Origin: Sphingomonas bacterium
GTDB lineage: Bacteria > Pseudomonadota > Alphaproteobacteria > Sphingomonadales > Sphingomonadaceae
Direction of reading: 5' to 3'
DNA length: 33,003 nt
NCBI RefSeq assembly: GCF_028292925.1
Contig: NZ_JAQGLK010000057.1
Span: forward strand, 1-33,003
Positions 1,364-10,106 of the stretch are shown here, one piece after another. Made by a program: the position numbers and the translations under genes. A model generated the notes under the pieces. The model was not told where the DNA came from. It made no database searches and saw only the letters and a program-made list of their open reading frames with translations. Every line of letters begins with the position of its first letter. The stretch's first letter is position 1.

Positions 1364-1467
1364 GCTCGTGATTTTACGGGATCGCGTGCGCCATCTAGCA
1401 TTCCCTGCCAACCTGCGGAAAGCAGGCCGGACGAACGAGCCGGGCACCGAAAGATACGGGAGAGATG

Positions 1468-4221
<2,754 letters not shown>

Positions 4222-4238
4222 TGGAGAGAGGAACGACC

Positions 4239-5165
4239 ATGGCGAGCCTTGCCCCGGACATTGCGGATCCGACGATCGAGGACGGTGCCCGCACCGTCGA
4301 TGCGCAACTCAACTATCTGTTGCCGGGGCCGGATATCAACCGCCGCTTCGTCTCCGCCGGGGTGGAGGTGAACACCGGCACCTACGGGGCGTTCCCGGTG
4401 ACGATCCGCGATGCGCGCCCGATCCGGGAGCATTTCACGCTCGACACGCACGGCTTCACCCTCGGCGACTGCCCGACGAAGGTGACCGACTTCTACGATC
4501 GCGCCCATGTCGACGCGATCTACCTGGATGAGGTGCGCGTGGCGGTGGCGGCGCTGACCGGCGCCAACTTCGTCGCGCCGATGGGGTGGATGATCCGCAA
4601 TTCGGGCGACATCGCCGGCTACCAGAAGAAGCAGGAGGGGCCGTACGTTCATGCCGGCGGCGTTCAGCCCCCCGCCGGCGAGGTCCACATCGATACCGAA
4701 CCCAGCCGAGCCGACCGGGCAGCGGAGATGCTCTATCGCAAGCTGAAGCCGGATGGGCCCGGCTACAGCCGCTTCATCTATTCGAGCTTCTGGCGCACCT
4801 TCAGCCCGCCGCCGCAGGATTGCCCGCTCGCCGTGTGCGATTTCCGCAGCGTGCGGGATGACGAGGGCACGCCCAACGTCCTCCACGTCGTCGACGAGAT
4901 CCCGCAGGGGGACGCGATGTTCGCGCCGATGGATGACGACGTTCGGCCCGCGGCGGCGATCTTCCGCTACAGCCCGGATCATCGCTGGTGGTATTTCTCG
5001 AACATGTCGAAGGATGAGGCGCTGCTGCTGAAGTTCCACGACAGCGATCATTCGGTAGCGTGGCGCACCCCGCACACCGCCTTCTGGGACAACAGCCTGC
5101 CCGGCGGCAATGTCCGCGCCAGCATCGAGTGCCGGTCGGTCGCCTTCTTCGAACACCAGTCCTGA
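4239..5165 (+). CDS. CmcJ/NvfI-family Fe(II)/2-oxoglutarate-type oxygenase
   Basis: A complete 308-residue member of the family represented by cephamycin CmcJ, AsaB and NvfI. Likely iron ligands are visible: His150 and Asp152 in GEVHID, and His279 in RTPHTAFWD. The family-typical C-terminal run VRASIECRSVAFF follows. This is the facial triad arrangement expected of hydroxylases or desaturases that use molecular oxygen. I chose ATG 4239 because GGAGAGAGGAA (4223-4233) sits five bases upstream. ATG 4221, overlapping the receptor stop, is a less likely alternative adding six residues. The protein is cytoplasmic, with no signal peptide. It is paralogous to the partial gene at 1-308. Lying between an outer-membrane receptor and a LigE-like enzyme, it probably oxidises the imported compound. 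The substrate cannot be read from sequence. Confidence 0.8.
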   Translation: MASLAPDIADPTIEDGARTVDAQLNYLLPGPDINRRFVSAGVEVNTGTYGAFPVTIRDARPIREHFTLDTHGFTLGDCPTKVTDFYDRAHVDAIYLDEVRVAVAALTGANFVAPMGWMIRNSGDIAGYQKKQEGPYVHAGGVQPPAGEVHIDTEPSRADRAAEMLYRKLKPDGPGYSRFIYSSFWRTFSPPPQDCPLAVCDFRSVRDDEGTPNVLHVVDEIPQGDAMFAPMDDDVRPAAAIFRYSPDHRWWYFSNMSKDEALLLKFHDSDHSVAWRTPHTAFWDNSLPGGNVRASIECRSVAFFEHQS

Positions 5166-5288: not shown

Positions 5289-6128
5289 ATGGCAGACGAC
5301 AACAAGATCACCCTGTACGACCTGCAATTATCGACAGGCGCCACGATCAGCCCGTTCGTATGGGCAACCAAATACGCCATCGCCCACAAGGGCCTGGAAC
5401 TCGATATCGTGCCGGGCGGCTTCACCGGCATCATGGATCGCACCGGCGGCAAGACCGAGCGGCTGCCCGCCATCGTCGACGATGGCGAATGGGTGCTGGA
5501 TAGCTGGCTGATCGCCGAACATCTCGATCGCAAATATCCCGACCGGCCGGTGCTGATCGGCGATCCCGGCGTCAAGCCGCTGACCCAGCTTGTCGAGACG
5601 TGGCTGTGGCAGCAGGCGATCAGCCCGTGGATGACGTGCTTCCTGAAAAGCTACCGCGATCTCTCGCTGCCGCAGGATCATGCCTACGTGACCGAGAGCC
5701 GCGAGCGGATGTTCGGCCGCAGGATCGACGAGATCATCGTCGGCCGCGAGGATCGCCTGCCGGCCGTTCCTCCGAAGCTGGAACTGCTGCGGCAGGTGCT
5801 GCGCGAGCATAAGTGGCTCGGCGGCGATGCGCCCAACTACGCCGATTATCGCGCGCTCTCGGTCTTCCTGTTCTGCGCCTCGGTTGCCGACACGCCGGTG
5901 CTGACCGATGACGACCCGTTGCGCGACTGGATCGAGCGCGGATTCGATCTGCATGGCGGGCTGGGGCGGCATCCGGGCATGCACCCGATCTTCGGACTGA
6001 AGCTGCGCGAGGGCGATCCCGAGCCGTTCAACAAGGCCGCCGCGGCAGGCGGGCTCGTCAGCCGCAATACCGGCCCGCAGTCCACGGCCGCGGAGACCGC
6101 GCGGCTCAAGGGCCAGCCCGCCGGCTGA
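5289..6128 (+). CDS. LigE/LigP-like glutathione S-transferase (putative beta-etherase)
   Basis: A 279-residue GST-fold protein. The N-terminal thioredoxin-like domain (about 5-85) has ITLYDLQLSTGATISPFVW, then DIVPGGFTGI, the glutathione-binding LPAIVDDGEWVLDSW and AEHLDRKYPDRP. The C-terminal helical domain (about 95-230) has SLPQDHAYV, GREDRLPAVPP and FDLHGGLGRHPGM. From memory these blocks match the lignin beta-etherase LigE of Sphingobium SYK-6 (about 281 residues) far more closely than generic GSTs, including Thr19-Ile-Ser21 at the same positions. LigE and LigP use glutathione to cleave beta-O-4 aryl ethers of (R)-configured lignin dimers. A GAGAGGAAG site precedes the ATG. No partner resembling LigD, LigF or LigG is in the window, so true etherase activity is inferred. 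Another glutathione-dependent ether or aromatic reaction is possible. Confidence 0.85.
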   Translation: MADDNKITLYDLQLSTGATISPFVWATKYAIAHKGLELDIVPGGFTGIMDRTGGKTERLPAIVDDGEWVLDSWLIAEHLDRKYPDRPVLIGDPGVKPLTQLVETWLWQQAISPWMTCFLKSYRDLSLPQDHAYVTESRERMFGRRIDEIIVGREDRLPAVPPKLELLRQVLREHKWLGGDAPNYADYRALSVFLFCASVADTPVLTDDDPLRDWIERGFDLHGGLGRHPGMHPIFGLKLREGDPEPFNKAAAAGGLVSRNTGPQSTAAETARLKGQPAG

Positions 6129-6390: not shown

Positions 6391-6789
6391 CGGCGCTTCA
6401 TAGCTCCGCCGCGGGGTATGTCCATCGCCGCATCCGGGCACATGCCCGCCGGCCCGTCCGCTCTCCGGCAGGCTGCGAACGAAGAAGCCAAAACCAGAAA
6501 CGGCGACTAAACCAGATCAATATCACCGCATCGCCATGCCCGCCGCATCGGCTCTGGAGTGAATCCGCCCCATGATCTTGCGTCCTGTTCCCACGGGATC
6601 ATGGCTGAACGCGGCTGTACATGGCAGGTTGCTATCGCTTTATGGGGACAATTGTATGCCCGTGGCGCTAAACCGGATCGGGAAGGAGGAACGCTTTAAT
6701 CTCCATCGCAGGAACGTTCCGCGGCTTCATCGTTTTTGCTTTGTTGCGGAATGGGTAGAACCCAGGCGGCTAACGGGGAAGGTTGGCAA
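6391..6789. other. Intergenic stretch, no gene seen apart from promoter-like sequence
   Basis: About 400 bases without a convincing protein frame; frames here are extensions of neighbours. Base composition is more AT-rich than the surroundings around 6480-6740. It holds a perfect GGAACGTTCC palindrome (6711-6720) that forms part of a promoter-like site described separately. No RNA gene was recognised. Confidence 0.5.
6711..6734 (+). promoter_or_regulatory. Weak candidate EcfG-type promoter for the fusion gene
   Basis: GGAAC (6711-6715) is followed after 15 bases by CGTT (6731-6734). The general-stress sigma factor of alphaproteobacteria prefers GGAAC, 16-17 bases, CGTT, so the spacer is one base short. 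A transcript starting near 6742 would leave a leader of about 48 bases before GTG 6790. Confidence 0.3.
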
Positions 6790-9000
6790 GTGGACGACCT
6801 CGAACTCTGGGGCGGGCTGGAATGCACCGTCAATCGTGTCGGCGATGGCTTTCGGGATCAGTTTGCGGAGAGCGGGCATCATGACCGGCCCGAGGATCTG
6901 GATTGCATCCGGGCGCTCGGCATCCGGACATTGCGATACCCGGTGGCCTGGGAACGGGTTTCGCCCGATCGCCCCGACATAGCCGAATGGGGCTGGTACG
7001 ATGCCCGGCTGGATCGGTTGCGGCAGCTCGGCATCCGGATGATCGCCGGCCTCGTCCACCACGGCAGCGGGCCGCGCTACACCGATCTTCTCGCTGACGA
7101 TTTCGCCGCCGGGCTGGCGCGCCACGCGCGGGGTGTGGCCGAACGTTACCCCTGGATCGAGGATTGGACGCCGGTCAACGAACCCGTGACGACGGCGCGC
7201 TTCTCCGCTTTGTACGGGCACTGGTATCCCCATCACCGGGACGAACGGTCCTTCTGGGTGGCACTGCTCAATCAGATCGACGGCACCCGGCTGTCGATGC
7301 GCGAGGTTCGCCGGATCAACCCGGCCGCGCGGCTGATCCAGACCGACGATCTCGGCCGGACCTATGCGACAGCGGCGCTGCAGGAACAGGCCGCCTTCGA
7401 TAATTGCCGCCGCTGGATGTCGTGGGATCTGCTGTGCGGGCGCGTCACCCCCGATCATCGGCTGTGGCAGCGTCTGTGCGGCTTCGGGCTGGAGGACCGG
7501 CTGCGCGCGATCGCGGACGATCCGTGTCCACCCGACATCGTGGGCGTCAACCATTACCTGACGAGCGACCGCTTCCTCGATCACCGCATCGATCGTTATC
7601 CGGTGGAGACGCGCGGCCACAACCACGCGCAACGCTTCGCCGATGTCGAAGGGGTGCGCGTGCTTCAGCCGCCGCCGCCGGGGCTGGCGGGCGTGCTGCG
7701 CGAGGCGTGGGCGCGGTACGGCATCCCGCTTGCCGTCACGGAAGTACATAACGGCTCCACCCGTGAGGAGCAGTTGCGCTGGACCCAGCAGGCCTGGCGC
7801 ACCGCCCATGCGCTGCGTGAAGAGGGGATCGATCTGCGCGCGATCACCGCCTGGGCGCTGTTGGGCAGCCACGGCTGGAACACGCTGCTGACCGACACCG
7901 GCACCTATGAGCCTGGTGCATTCGACGTGCGCGGCGGCGAGCCGCGGCCGACCGCCCTGGCGGGGCTGCTCGCGTCCTTGGCGGGGGCGGGGCCGGCGGA
8001 GGTGCATCCGGTGCTTGCGGGGGAGGGCTGGTGGTCCCGCCCGATCCGGCTTCACCACGCGCCCGTGCCACGGCCGGCGCGCATCCGCGAACATGCGCTG
8101 AGGGAATCGCGGCCGATCGCCTCCGCCGCGCCGATCCTCATCGTCGGCGCGGGCGGGTTGCTTGGCGGTGCGCTCGCCGCGGCCTGCCGGCACCGCGATC
8201 TTCACCACGTCGCGCTCCACCGCCGCGATCTCGATCTGGCGGACGCCGACGGGATCGGCCGGGTGCTGGACGTGCATCGCCCCTGGGTGGTCATCAACGC
8301 GGCCGGCTGGGTCCGTATCGACGCTGCGGAAACCGATCCCGATGCGTGCTTTCGCGTGAACAGCGAGGGCGCGGCCTTGCTCGCCTGCGCCTGCGCGGAG
8401 CGCGGCATCCCGACGGTCGGCTTCTCCAGCGATCTGGTGTTCGACGGCGCGGCGAACGCGCTTTACACGGAGGCGGCACACCCGGCACCGCTCAACGTGT
8501 ACGGGCGCAGCAAGGCGGCGTTCGAAGCCGCCATCGCCGGCACGCGCGGGGATCATCTGGTCGTTCGCACCGCGGCGTTGTTTTCCCCCTTCGATCCGGG
8601 CAATTTCGCGATGCAGGCAATGGCTGCGCTCCGCGACGGGGAGGCCCATCCGGTCGCGGCGGACGAGATCGTCTCGCCCACCTACGTGCCGGACCTGTGT
8701 GATGCCGTGCTGGATCTGGCGACGGACGGTGCGACAGGCCTTTGGCACCTCAGTCACGGCGAAGCGGTCGGGCGCGCGGAATTCGTCGGCCGTCTGGCTG
8801 CGGCGTGCGGCTTGGACGCGCGGTCGATCGCGTCGGTCCCGGGCGCCTATCTTCGCCGGTCCGCGCCGCGCCCGGCGTTTACGGCCCTGGCAAGCGACCG
8901 CGGGCAGATGCTGCCGCCACTGTCCGACGCGATCGCCCGCTTCGCCCATGAGGTTCGGCGCGGCGATGCCGCCCATGCGACGACCTCCCGGATCGCCTGA
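6790..9000 (+). CDS. Fusion of GH1-like glycoside hydrolase and RmlD-like sugar-nucleotide reductase
   Basis: A 736-residue two-domain protein. Residues about 1-400 form a GH1-like barrel: LELWGGLECTVNRVGD at the start, Glu131 in TPVNEP as acid/base and Glu318 in AVTEVHNG as nucleophile. The spacing of 187 is close to classical GH1 enzymes. Residues about 449-730 resemble dTDP-4-dehydrorhamnose reductase: Rossmann motif VGAGGLLGG, substrate region FSSDLVFDG, and catalytic Tyr571 and Lys575 in YGRSK. I chose GTG 6790 because GGGGAAGG lies seven bases upstream; ATG 6751 and TTG 6736 are in-frame alternatives with poorer sites. I recall this fusion from other proteobacterial genomes as an uncharacterised architecture. 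The two domains may act on the same sugar, but the substrate is unknown. No rhamnose pathway genes are nearby. Confidence 0.85.
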   Translation: MDDLELWGGLECTVNRVGDGFRDQFAESGHHDRPEDLDCIRALGIRTLRYPVAWERVSPDRPDIAEWGWYDARLDRLRQLGIRMIAGLVHHGSGPRYTDLLADDFAAGLARHARGVAERYPWIEDWTPVNEPVTTARFSALYGHWYPHHRDERSFWVALLNQIDGTRLSMREVRRINPAARLIQTDDLGRTYATAALQEQAAFDNCRRWMSWDLLCGRVTPDHRLWQRLCGFGLEDRLRAIADDPCPPDIVGVNHYLTSDRFLDHRIDRYPVETRGHNHAQRFADVEGVRVLQPPPPGLAGVLREAWARYGIPLAVTEVHNGSTREEQLRWTQQAWRTAHALREEGIDLRAITAWALLGSHGWNTLLTDTGTYEPGAFDVRGGEPRPTALAGLLASLAGAGPAEVHPVLAGEGWWSRPIRLHHAPVPRPARIREHALRESRPIASAAPILIVGAGGLLGGALAAACRHRDLHHVALHRRDLDLADADGIGRVLDVHRPWVVINAAGWVRIDAAETDPDACFRVNSEGAALLACACAERGIPTVGFSSDLVFDGAANALYTEAAHPAPLNVYGRSKAAFEAAIAGTRGDHLVVRTAALFSPFDPGNFAMQAMAALRDGEAHPVAADEIVSPTYVPDLCDAVLDLATDGATGLWHLSHGEAVGRAEFVGRLAAACGLDARSIASVPGAYLRRSAPRPAFTALASDRGQMLPPLSDAIARFAHEVRRGDAAHATTSRIA

Positions 9001-9093: not shown

Positions 9094-9119
9094 GGAACAT
9101 GTGCCCGAAAGCGAGAGTT
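9094..9119 (+). promoter_or_regulatory. Candidate EcfG (general stress) promoter of the catalase gene
   Basis: GGAAC at 9094-9098 is followed after 17 bases by AGTT (9116-9119), one mismatch from the CGTT of the EcfG consensus. A start near 9127 would give a short leader containing the AGGAGG site (9136-9141). Manganese catalases are frequently general-stress genes, which fits. Confidence 0.5.
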
Positions 9120-9149: not shown

Positions 9150-10106
9150 ATGTTCATGCACAATAAGCGGTTGCAATATACCGTGCGTGTCGCCGAGCCG
9201 AACCCGCGGCTGGCCACGATGATGCTGGAGCAGTTCGGGGGCGCGGATGGCGAGCTTTCGGCAGCCATGCGCTACTTCACCCAGGGCCTTGCCGAAGACG
9301 ACGCGGGCCGCAAGGACATGCTGCTCGACATTGCCACTGAAGAACTCAGCCACCTGGAAGTAATCGGTTCGATCGTTGCTATGCTCAACAAGGGCGTTAA
9401 AGCCCAGCTCGCCGAAGGCTTGATGGAAGAGGCGGAACTGTACCGCACCATCGGCGCAAGCGGCGTCAGCGCCAAGGAGTCCTTGTTGTTCGGTGGCGGC
9501 CCGGCATTGATCGATTCCGCCGGCGTGCCATGGACGGGTGCCTACGTGGACAGCCGCAGCGAACCGACCGTGGATCTGCGATCGAACATCGCGGCGGAGA
9601 GCCGGGCAAAGATCGTCTACGAACGGCTGATCAACATCACCGACGATCCCGGGATCAAGGAGGCGCTCGGCTTCCTGATGACGCGCGAGATCGCGCACCA
9701 GAAGTCGTTCGAGAAGGCGCTCTACGCGATCGAGGACAACTTCCCGGTGGGCAAGCTTCCGGGCCTCGAAAAGTATGCGAACATCTACGTCAACACCTCG
9801 CAGGGCGAGGGCGACATGACCGGTTCGTGGAATTCCGGGGCGCAGTGGGATCGGATCGACGATCTGACGCAGACGATGCCGATCGATGGCGGTGCCGGCA
9901 CGGCGACGGTGGATCTGGATCACAGCGACGCCAAGGTGCTCGACAAGCTGGCGCTGCGTACCCTTTCCAATCCTGCCGTGAACCCGACGACGGGCGTGGA
10001 TCTCGGCGCTGGGCCGGGTGCGGGGCGGACGACGGAAGCCGATTTCGGTGGTGCCGCCAGCATCGCCGAAGCCCCGGCAATGGGCGAGGCAAACGCACCG
10101 ACGTGA
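9150..10106 (+). CDS. Manganese catalase
   Basis: A 318-residue dimanganese catalase that converts hydrogen peroxide to water and oxygen in the cytoplasm. The four-helix-bundle metal ligands are all in place: Glu35 (DGELSAAMRY), Glu65 and His68 (EELSHLEVIG), Glu150 (AESRAKIVYERL) and His183 (REIAHQKSFEKAL). The C-terminal part after about residue 225 (GSWNSGAQW onward) is the low-complexity, Gly/Ala-rich tail usual in bacterial members. The start is fixed by AGGAGG eight bases before the ATG. A stress-type promoter is likely upstream. Two strong hairpins separate it from the alcohol dehydrogenase gene on the same strand. Confidence 0.95.
   Translation: MFMHNKRLQYTVRVAEPNPRLATMMLEQFGGADGELSAAMRYFTQGLAEDDAGRKDMLLDIATEELSHLEVIGSIVAMLNKGVKAQLAEGLMEEAELYRTIGASGVSAKESLLFGGGPALIDSAGVPWTGAYVDSRSEPTVDLRSNIAAESRAKIVYERLINITDDPGIKEALGFLMTREIAHQKSFEKALYAIEDNFPVGKLPGLEKYANIYVNTSQGEGDMTGSWNSGAQWDRIDDLTQTMPIDGGAGTATVDLDHSDAKVLDKLALRTLSNPAVNPTTGVDLGAGPGAGRTTEADFGGAASIAEAPAMGEANAPT

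Follow-up and report, generated by a model that had tools for sequence, protein, structure and literature searches.

Known bacterial galactofuranose (Galf) systems, such as those of the Klebsiella O antigen and mycobacterial galactan, combine a UDP-galactopyranose mutase (UGM) with a Galf transferase. Galactose itself is converted to UDP-galactose by GalK, GalT, and GalE. The GH1 beta-glucosidases (CAZy GH1; PF00232), for example BglA of Thermotoga maritima, are TIM-barrel enzymes with catalytic carboxylates in the motifs NEP and TE(x)NG. Roles have been assigned to the residues of the GH1 pocket, including a His, a Tyr, a platform Trp, and a Glu that holds O4 and O6; a −1 subsite with Gln, Trp, and Glu is typical of glucosidases but is not demanded of the GH1 family. 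The dTDP-4-dehydrorhamnose reductase RmlD (PF04321, TIGR01214) has an extended SDR fold, and its human relative MAT2B has a regulatory or structural role.

The window, the whole 33,003-nucleotide stretch of Sphingomonas DNA that was analysed, contains a gene encoding a fusion of a GH1 domain and an RmlD-like domain. The fusion protein shares with GH1 beta-glucosidases the TIM-barrel, both carboxylate motifs, and, in the −1 subsite, the His, the Asn, the Tyr, and the platform Trp; it differs from them in a variable N15, an invariant H91, weak family scores, and a position 362 occupied by D, G, N, or, in rare cases, E. The reductase domain has the extended SDR fold, GxxGxxG motif, and S-Y-K triad of RmlD and MAT2B. 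However, unlike RmlD, it is joined to a GH1 domain, scores below the TIGR01214 cut-off, and has lost the triad in 21 of the 67 sequences compared. The gene cassette to which the fusion is assigned below pairs a UGM of the solved kind (3hdq) with a glycosyltransferase, as the known Galf systems do, but it also contains a conserved GH1(-RmlD) protein, with promoters of the EcfG type in alphaproteobacteria.

The reading frame of the fusion gene is open on the forward strand from TTG 6736 through the stop codon ending at 9000. GTG 6790 is the better, and likely the actual, start, because alignments of homologues with the frame from this codon begin at approximately residue 4, and because GGGGAAGG is positioned ahead of it at 6775-6782. 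An antisense open reading frame of 749 amino acids (6727-8976) overlaps the gene, presumably as a mere shadow of its coding sequence. Both domains score above their Pfam cut-offs in the product: Glyco_hydro_1 with 36.9 bits (cut-off 22.6) and RmlD_sub_bind with 185.5 bits (cut-off 27). The AlphaFold2 model, calculated from an alignment of 28 sequences, has two well-formed domains (mean pLDDT 90.2, pTM 0.89). The original prediction had placed the active sites of a glycosidase and a reductase in one chain. E131, E318, S547, Y571, and K575 were all found there, and a script run on the GTG frame reproduced the predicted numbers of E131, E318, Y571, and K575 exactly, with 187 residues from E131 to E318 and the Y571/K575 pair in YGRSK (Table 1). 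Public records already contain proteins of this architecture, under the annotations 'family 1 glycosylhydrolase', 'sugar nucleotide-binding protein', or 'SDR family oxidoreductase'.

Table 1 Features of the GH1-RmlD fusion gene and its upstream region (window coordinates)
Feature	Coordinates	Strand	Details
EcfG-like element GGAAC-N16-GTT	6711..6734	+	weak; one base under consensus spacing
GH1-RmlD fusion CDS	6790..9000	+	736 codons from GTG, plus stop
GH1-fold (beta/alpha)8 domain	6790..8004	+	residues 1-405; Pfam, VIA-align
E131 codon, putative acid/base	7180..7182	+	N130-E131 in NEP; directly after strand 125-130
E318 codon, putative nucleophile	7741..7743	+	T317-E318 in TEVHNG; inside strand 314-319
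Interdomain linker	8005..8121	+	residues 406-444; low confidence at 423-433 (AlphaFold2)
RmlD-like extended SDR domain	8122..8964	+	residues 445-725; Pfam, VIA-align
S547 codon, S-Y-K triad	8428..8430	+	alignment
Y571..K575 codons (YGRSK)	8500..8514	+	alignment

The region upstream of the fusion gene encodes a TonB receptor (1465-4221), an oxidoreductase of the CmcJ/NvfI family (4191-5165; NF041278, 255.7 bits, cut-off 80; no Pfam match), and a LigE/LigF-type glutathione S-transferase beta-etherase (5289-6128; NF042997, 503.8 bits, cut-off 440), the last of which suggests cleavage of lignin beta-aryl ethers.

The N-terminal part of the fusion protein has the GH1 (beta/alpha)8 fold: residues ~1-402 superimpose in VIA-align on GH1 beta-glucosidases with Z ~35 and rmsd ~3. 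In the strands of the AlphaFold2 model, E131 and E318 occupy the positions of the GH1 carboxylates, NEP on strand 4 and TENG on strand 7, and form a predicted active site of the retaining type. Residues E11, R16, H90, H91, N130, E131, Y256, E318, W355, and W363 are invariant in 67 of 67 sequences, a set that includes the window and omits L040 and L048, whose frames are broken, and the short L049 and L050. A profile of the domain was paired with solved GH1 proteins by hmmsearch at E 0.001, whereas E 1e-20 gave no match. In this alignment, H90 corresponds to the conserved His, H91 is opposite a Trp, Y256 is the Tyr near the nucleophile, W355 is the platform Trp, position 362 is that of the O4/O6-holding Glu of glucosidases, and W363 is the adjoining Trp. 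Position 362 is mostly D or G, also N, and rarely E among the 67 sequences. The window has N15, H91, and G362 where the −1 subsite of beta-glucosidases has Gln, Trp, and Glu; N15 varies among the relatives, and H91 does not. The TIGR03356 score of the fusion is 55.9 against a cut-off of 478.5. As judged from these residues, the GH1 part is a subfamily with an invariant predicted pocket of its own, and the domain is therefore very probably an active enzyme with a substrate that differs from those of beta-glucosidases.

The C-terminal part belongs to the RmlD-like extended SDRs, with PF04321 above its cut-off, the S/T-Y-K triad, and the GxxGxxG motif present as GAGGLLG at residue 453. Residues 446-724 superimpose in VIA-align on RmlD 1vl0 (Z 37.1, rmsd 1.6, 276 residues aligned), and MAT2B chains are among both the sequence and the fold matches of the domain. 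The score for the equivalog TIGR01214 is 191.4 bits, under the cut-off of 224.05, and the domain is therefore not called RmlD. None of the scanned open reading frames of the window, which are a subset of the total, was identified as an rml gene. Since the triad is intact, the reductase of the window may well still be catalytic.

The two domains are joined in most relatives, as the original prediction implied; conservation of both active sites among homologues held for the GH1 residues but only partly for the reductase. A full-length domain with the triad is present in 46 of the 67 sequences, a shortened or altered (degenerate) one in 13, where the letters at the triad columns of the strongly shortened domains depend on the alignment, and none in eight, whereas the GH1 carboxylates are kept in all 67. 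On a tree calculated from the GH1 columns alone ('quick' search, support from SH-aLRT only), the label of intact or lost reductase changes 12 times, and at least seven of the changes are forced by well-supported branches. The row nearest to the window by tree path (L114, from genome G110; identity 74% across the columns used for the tree) has a reductase region of ~96 residues, and that of another family relative (L107, from G029) is ~141 residues long; both retain the two GH1 carboxylates. Because so many relatives have lost the reductase site or the domain, the cassette does not seem to need it, and from the sequences this half of the protein looks optional for the conserved job of the protein.

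The genomic company of the fusion gene was analysed at 55 loci, 42 on genome contigs from many phyla and 13 on plasmids, using tblastn with protein queries from Deinococcus and Sphingobium. The thresholds were at least 50% identity and E <1e-40 for glf, and at least 35% and E <1e-20 for the GT4-like glycosyltransferase; weaker glf-like matches (L027, L037) and a fragment of a glycosyltransferase (L053) fell below them and were not counted. When all open reading frames were clustered by single linkage, genuine genes were grouped with antisense shadows, and these named-query searches replaced the clustering. The 13 plasmid loci come from the best 25 hits on plasmids (H1-H25), and one of them, H24, was chosen after its annotation showed glf; the linkage is therefore quoted for the 42 genome-contig loci. 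Of these 42, 28 have glf and 33 have the glycosyltransferase within the surrounding stretch analysed, a linkage that the original prediction, which proposed a survey of gene neighbourhoods, had missed. Among all 55 loci, glf occurs in 37, within 4 kb in 36 of them, and the glycosyltransferase and glf form one joined match in 17. There are 14 contig loci without an adjacent glf. Thirteen of their genomes were searched, of which nine have glf elsewhere; none was found in the other four, whose records are all labelled MAGs. The cassette occurs in Pseudomonadota, Deinococcota, Cyanobacteriota, Chloroflexota, Myxococcota, Bacteroidota, and other phyla; the fusion is widespread, in agreement with the original prediction, which had placed it in other genomes too.

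The same association is found in the family of the window, where glf is present in 18 of 18 fusion-bearing genomes versus 14 of 131 others (149 genomes; Fisher p 7e-15, uncorrected for relatedness). The fusion search scored at most seven candidates per genome, and the 18 genomes are the 19 matching rows minus G073, which matches only at residues 440-701, in the reductase. Fusion and glf are on separate contigs or far apart in eight of the 18, including the genome of the window, whose sole glf match is a glycosyltransferase-Glf (GT-Glf) fusion on contig C196. Its Glf part is identified as a UGM by a PF03275 score above cut-off and by its match to solved UGMs (3hdq, E 9.5e-168); the glycosyltransferase part has no solved-structure match at E up to 0.1. 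Among the 14 family genomes with glf but without GH1-RmlD (for example G075, G001, and G046), nine have an open frame of at least 780 residues, the length of which suggests that they carry a GT-Glf fusion. A Galf system does not require the GH1 part, as indicated by these 14 genomes and by Deinococcus radiodurans, which has a GT-glf locus without a GH1 gene.

Genes for GH2, galT, galK, or a galE-like protein, the last named from Pfam epimerase families only, are present in 17 of the 42 contig loci, including those of Nannocystis, Ramlibacter, Sorangium, and a cyanobacterium; six of the 17 are from Nannocystis and none is from a sphingomonad. This listing is based on an ad hoc gene call, which did not recover the fusion gene of L041 or that of L052, and on Pfam scans of ten neighbours. 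No galactokinase signature was found in the genome of the window.

EcfG promoters are reported to have the form GGAAC-N17-20-GTT in Sphingomonas melonis (PMC6599016) and GGAAC-N16-CGTT, equal to N17-GTT, in S. granuli (PMC7083833). The alphaproteobacterial copies of the fusion gene are enriched for such general-stress promoter motifs. In the 300 bases ahead of the gene, GGAAC-N17/18-GTT is present on the gene strand in 10 of 37 alphaproteobacterial stretches (mean 0.34 and maximum 3 in 300 shuffles) and on the opposite strand in 15 (mean 0.28, maximum 2), and on neither strand in 20. Outside alphaproteobacteria, the counts are one of 35 and zero of 35, respectively, and every other GGAAC/GTT spacing from 10 to 25 occurs in zero to two stretches. 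After the removal of two repeat rows, the motif remains in 9 of 35 stretches on the gene strand, 14 on the opposite strand, and 16 on one strand or both (L078 and L068 repeat L011 and L047; L048 had been dropped as a copy of L044). At many alphaproteobacterial loci, a divergent GT-Glf gene is positioned on the opposite-strand side of the motif stretch. The N17 or N18 motif is also present in 13 of 26 stretches upstream of glycosyltransferase or GT-Glf genes, a count that includes L078 and has no shuffle control. The gene of the window has only the N16 element, shorter than either published spacing, and may or may not be under EcfG control itself. The GT-Glf gene of the same genome has GGAAC-N17-GTT 54 bases ahead of its start, and the genome encodes a NepR anti-sigma factor (27.8 bits, cut-off 25.7).

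The EcfG-dependent genes of S. melonis Fr1 include a 'Glycosyltransferase' (#1750) and 'Glycosidases' (#1751) with adjacent numbers (PMC6599016). These might be the cassette considered here, in which case EcfG control of the fusion gene is perhaps already in print. The published 25-mer of the #1751 promoter has no match in 397 family genomes. The label 'Glycosidases' may equally denote a GH13 enzyme.

The linkage and co-occurrence with glf leave little doubt that the fusion protein belongs to a Galf cassette. The complete reading, to which a probability of about 50% is given, is a galactofuranoside pathway linked to stress, with the GH1 domain trimming or remodelling its product and with the RmlD-like domain as a dispensable module that binds NAD(P). 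The mutase would convert UDP-galactopyranose to UDP-Galf, and the GT4-like glycosyltransferase, which in the genome of the window forms one protein with the mutase, would transfer Galf onto an acceptor. The GH1 domain, with its remade sugar pocket, may then trim, turn over, or transglycosylate the Galf product. The accessory RmlD-like domain would either reduce a sugar of the pathway or only bind NAD(P), steadying or regulating the enzyme. In alphaproteobacteria, the EcfG general stress response would switch the cassette on.

Three other explanations of the fusion were considered. The original prediction proposed direct reduction, by the attached reductase, of a sugar released by the GH1 domain; a 4-keto sugar could take the place of that sugar. 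Such a coupled two-step enzyme would fit the intact sites in the chain of the window and the 46 rows that retain both, and the pTM of 0.89 suggests that the modelled domains may have a fixed arrangement; however, the degeneration or absence of the reductase beside an invariably intact GH1 carboxylate pair, repeated across the tree, speaks against coupling as the core function and makes this explanation improbable. The repeated loss of the catalytic Tyr and Lys while part of the domain stays would fit a module that binds NAD(P) and has a regulatory or structural role similar to that of human MAT2B, chains of which are among the sequence and fold matches. Nevertheless, the triad is kept more often than would be expected for a purely structural role, and we regard such a module, as an explanation of its own, as rather unlikely.

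The protein could also be a catabolic beta-glycosidase of the ordinary sort, acting on plant or aryl glycosides, in agreement with the genes for the beta-etherase-type glutathione S-transferase, the CmcJ/NvfI-type oxidoreductase, and the TonB receptor just upstream in the window. However, the CmcJ- and LigE-type proteins have no tblastn matches (E up to 1e-6) in the other 55 loci, unlike glf and the glycosyltransferase, which are frequent there, and the pocket, with Trp replaced by H91, Gln by N15, and Glu by G362, does not resemble that of beta-glucosidases. This explanation is very improbable. The stress-linked galactofuranoside pathway is the preferred reading, and under it an odd pairing of domains becomes part of a pathway that can be tested. 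Galactofuranose would be made by a cassette distributed over many phyla, which in alphaproteobacteria is apparently controlled by the general stress response. To our knowledge, no GH1 member acts on furanosides, and the known scope of this well-studied family would widen if the domain does. It is conceivable, although the odds are somewhat against it, that the pathway is at once undescribed, widespread, and general-stress-controlled, with the GH1 domain a new subfamily acting on galactofuranosides and the RmlD-like domain decaying in parallel lineages.

A search of open-licence PubMed Central papers found none that describes the fusion or a Galf cassette under EcfG control, and none joining EcfG, the general stress response, and UGM. 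No characterised member was found among these papers, in agreement with the original prediction. There is published work on a 4-keto sugar that inhibits UGM.

A manganese catalase gene (9150-10106; PF05067, 274.6 bits) is positioned directly downstream of the fusion gene. An EcfG-type GGAAC-N18-GTT at 9094-9119 precedes its start by 56 bases; this motif alone is weak evidence, because there are five such matches across the window. A copy of the fusion from the same genus (L103; G034:C148:2697-4865) has two TGA codons inside the match, and its frame ends after 717 residues; the match therefore probably runs a few codons beyond the stop of the gene. A second GH1-like protein, 27-28% identical, is encoded near the cassette in L012 (14597-15694) and L034 (15309-16385) and served as the outgroup of the tree.
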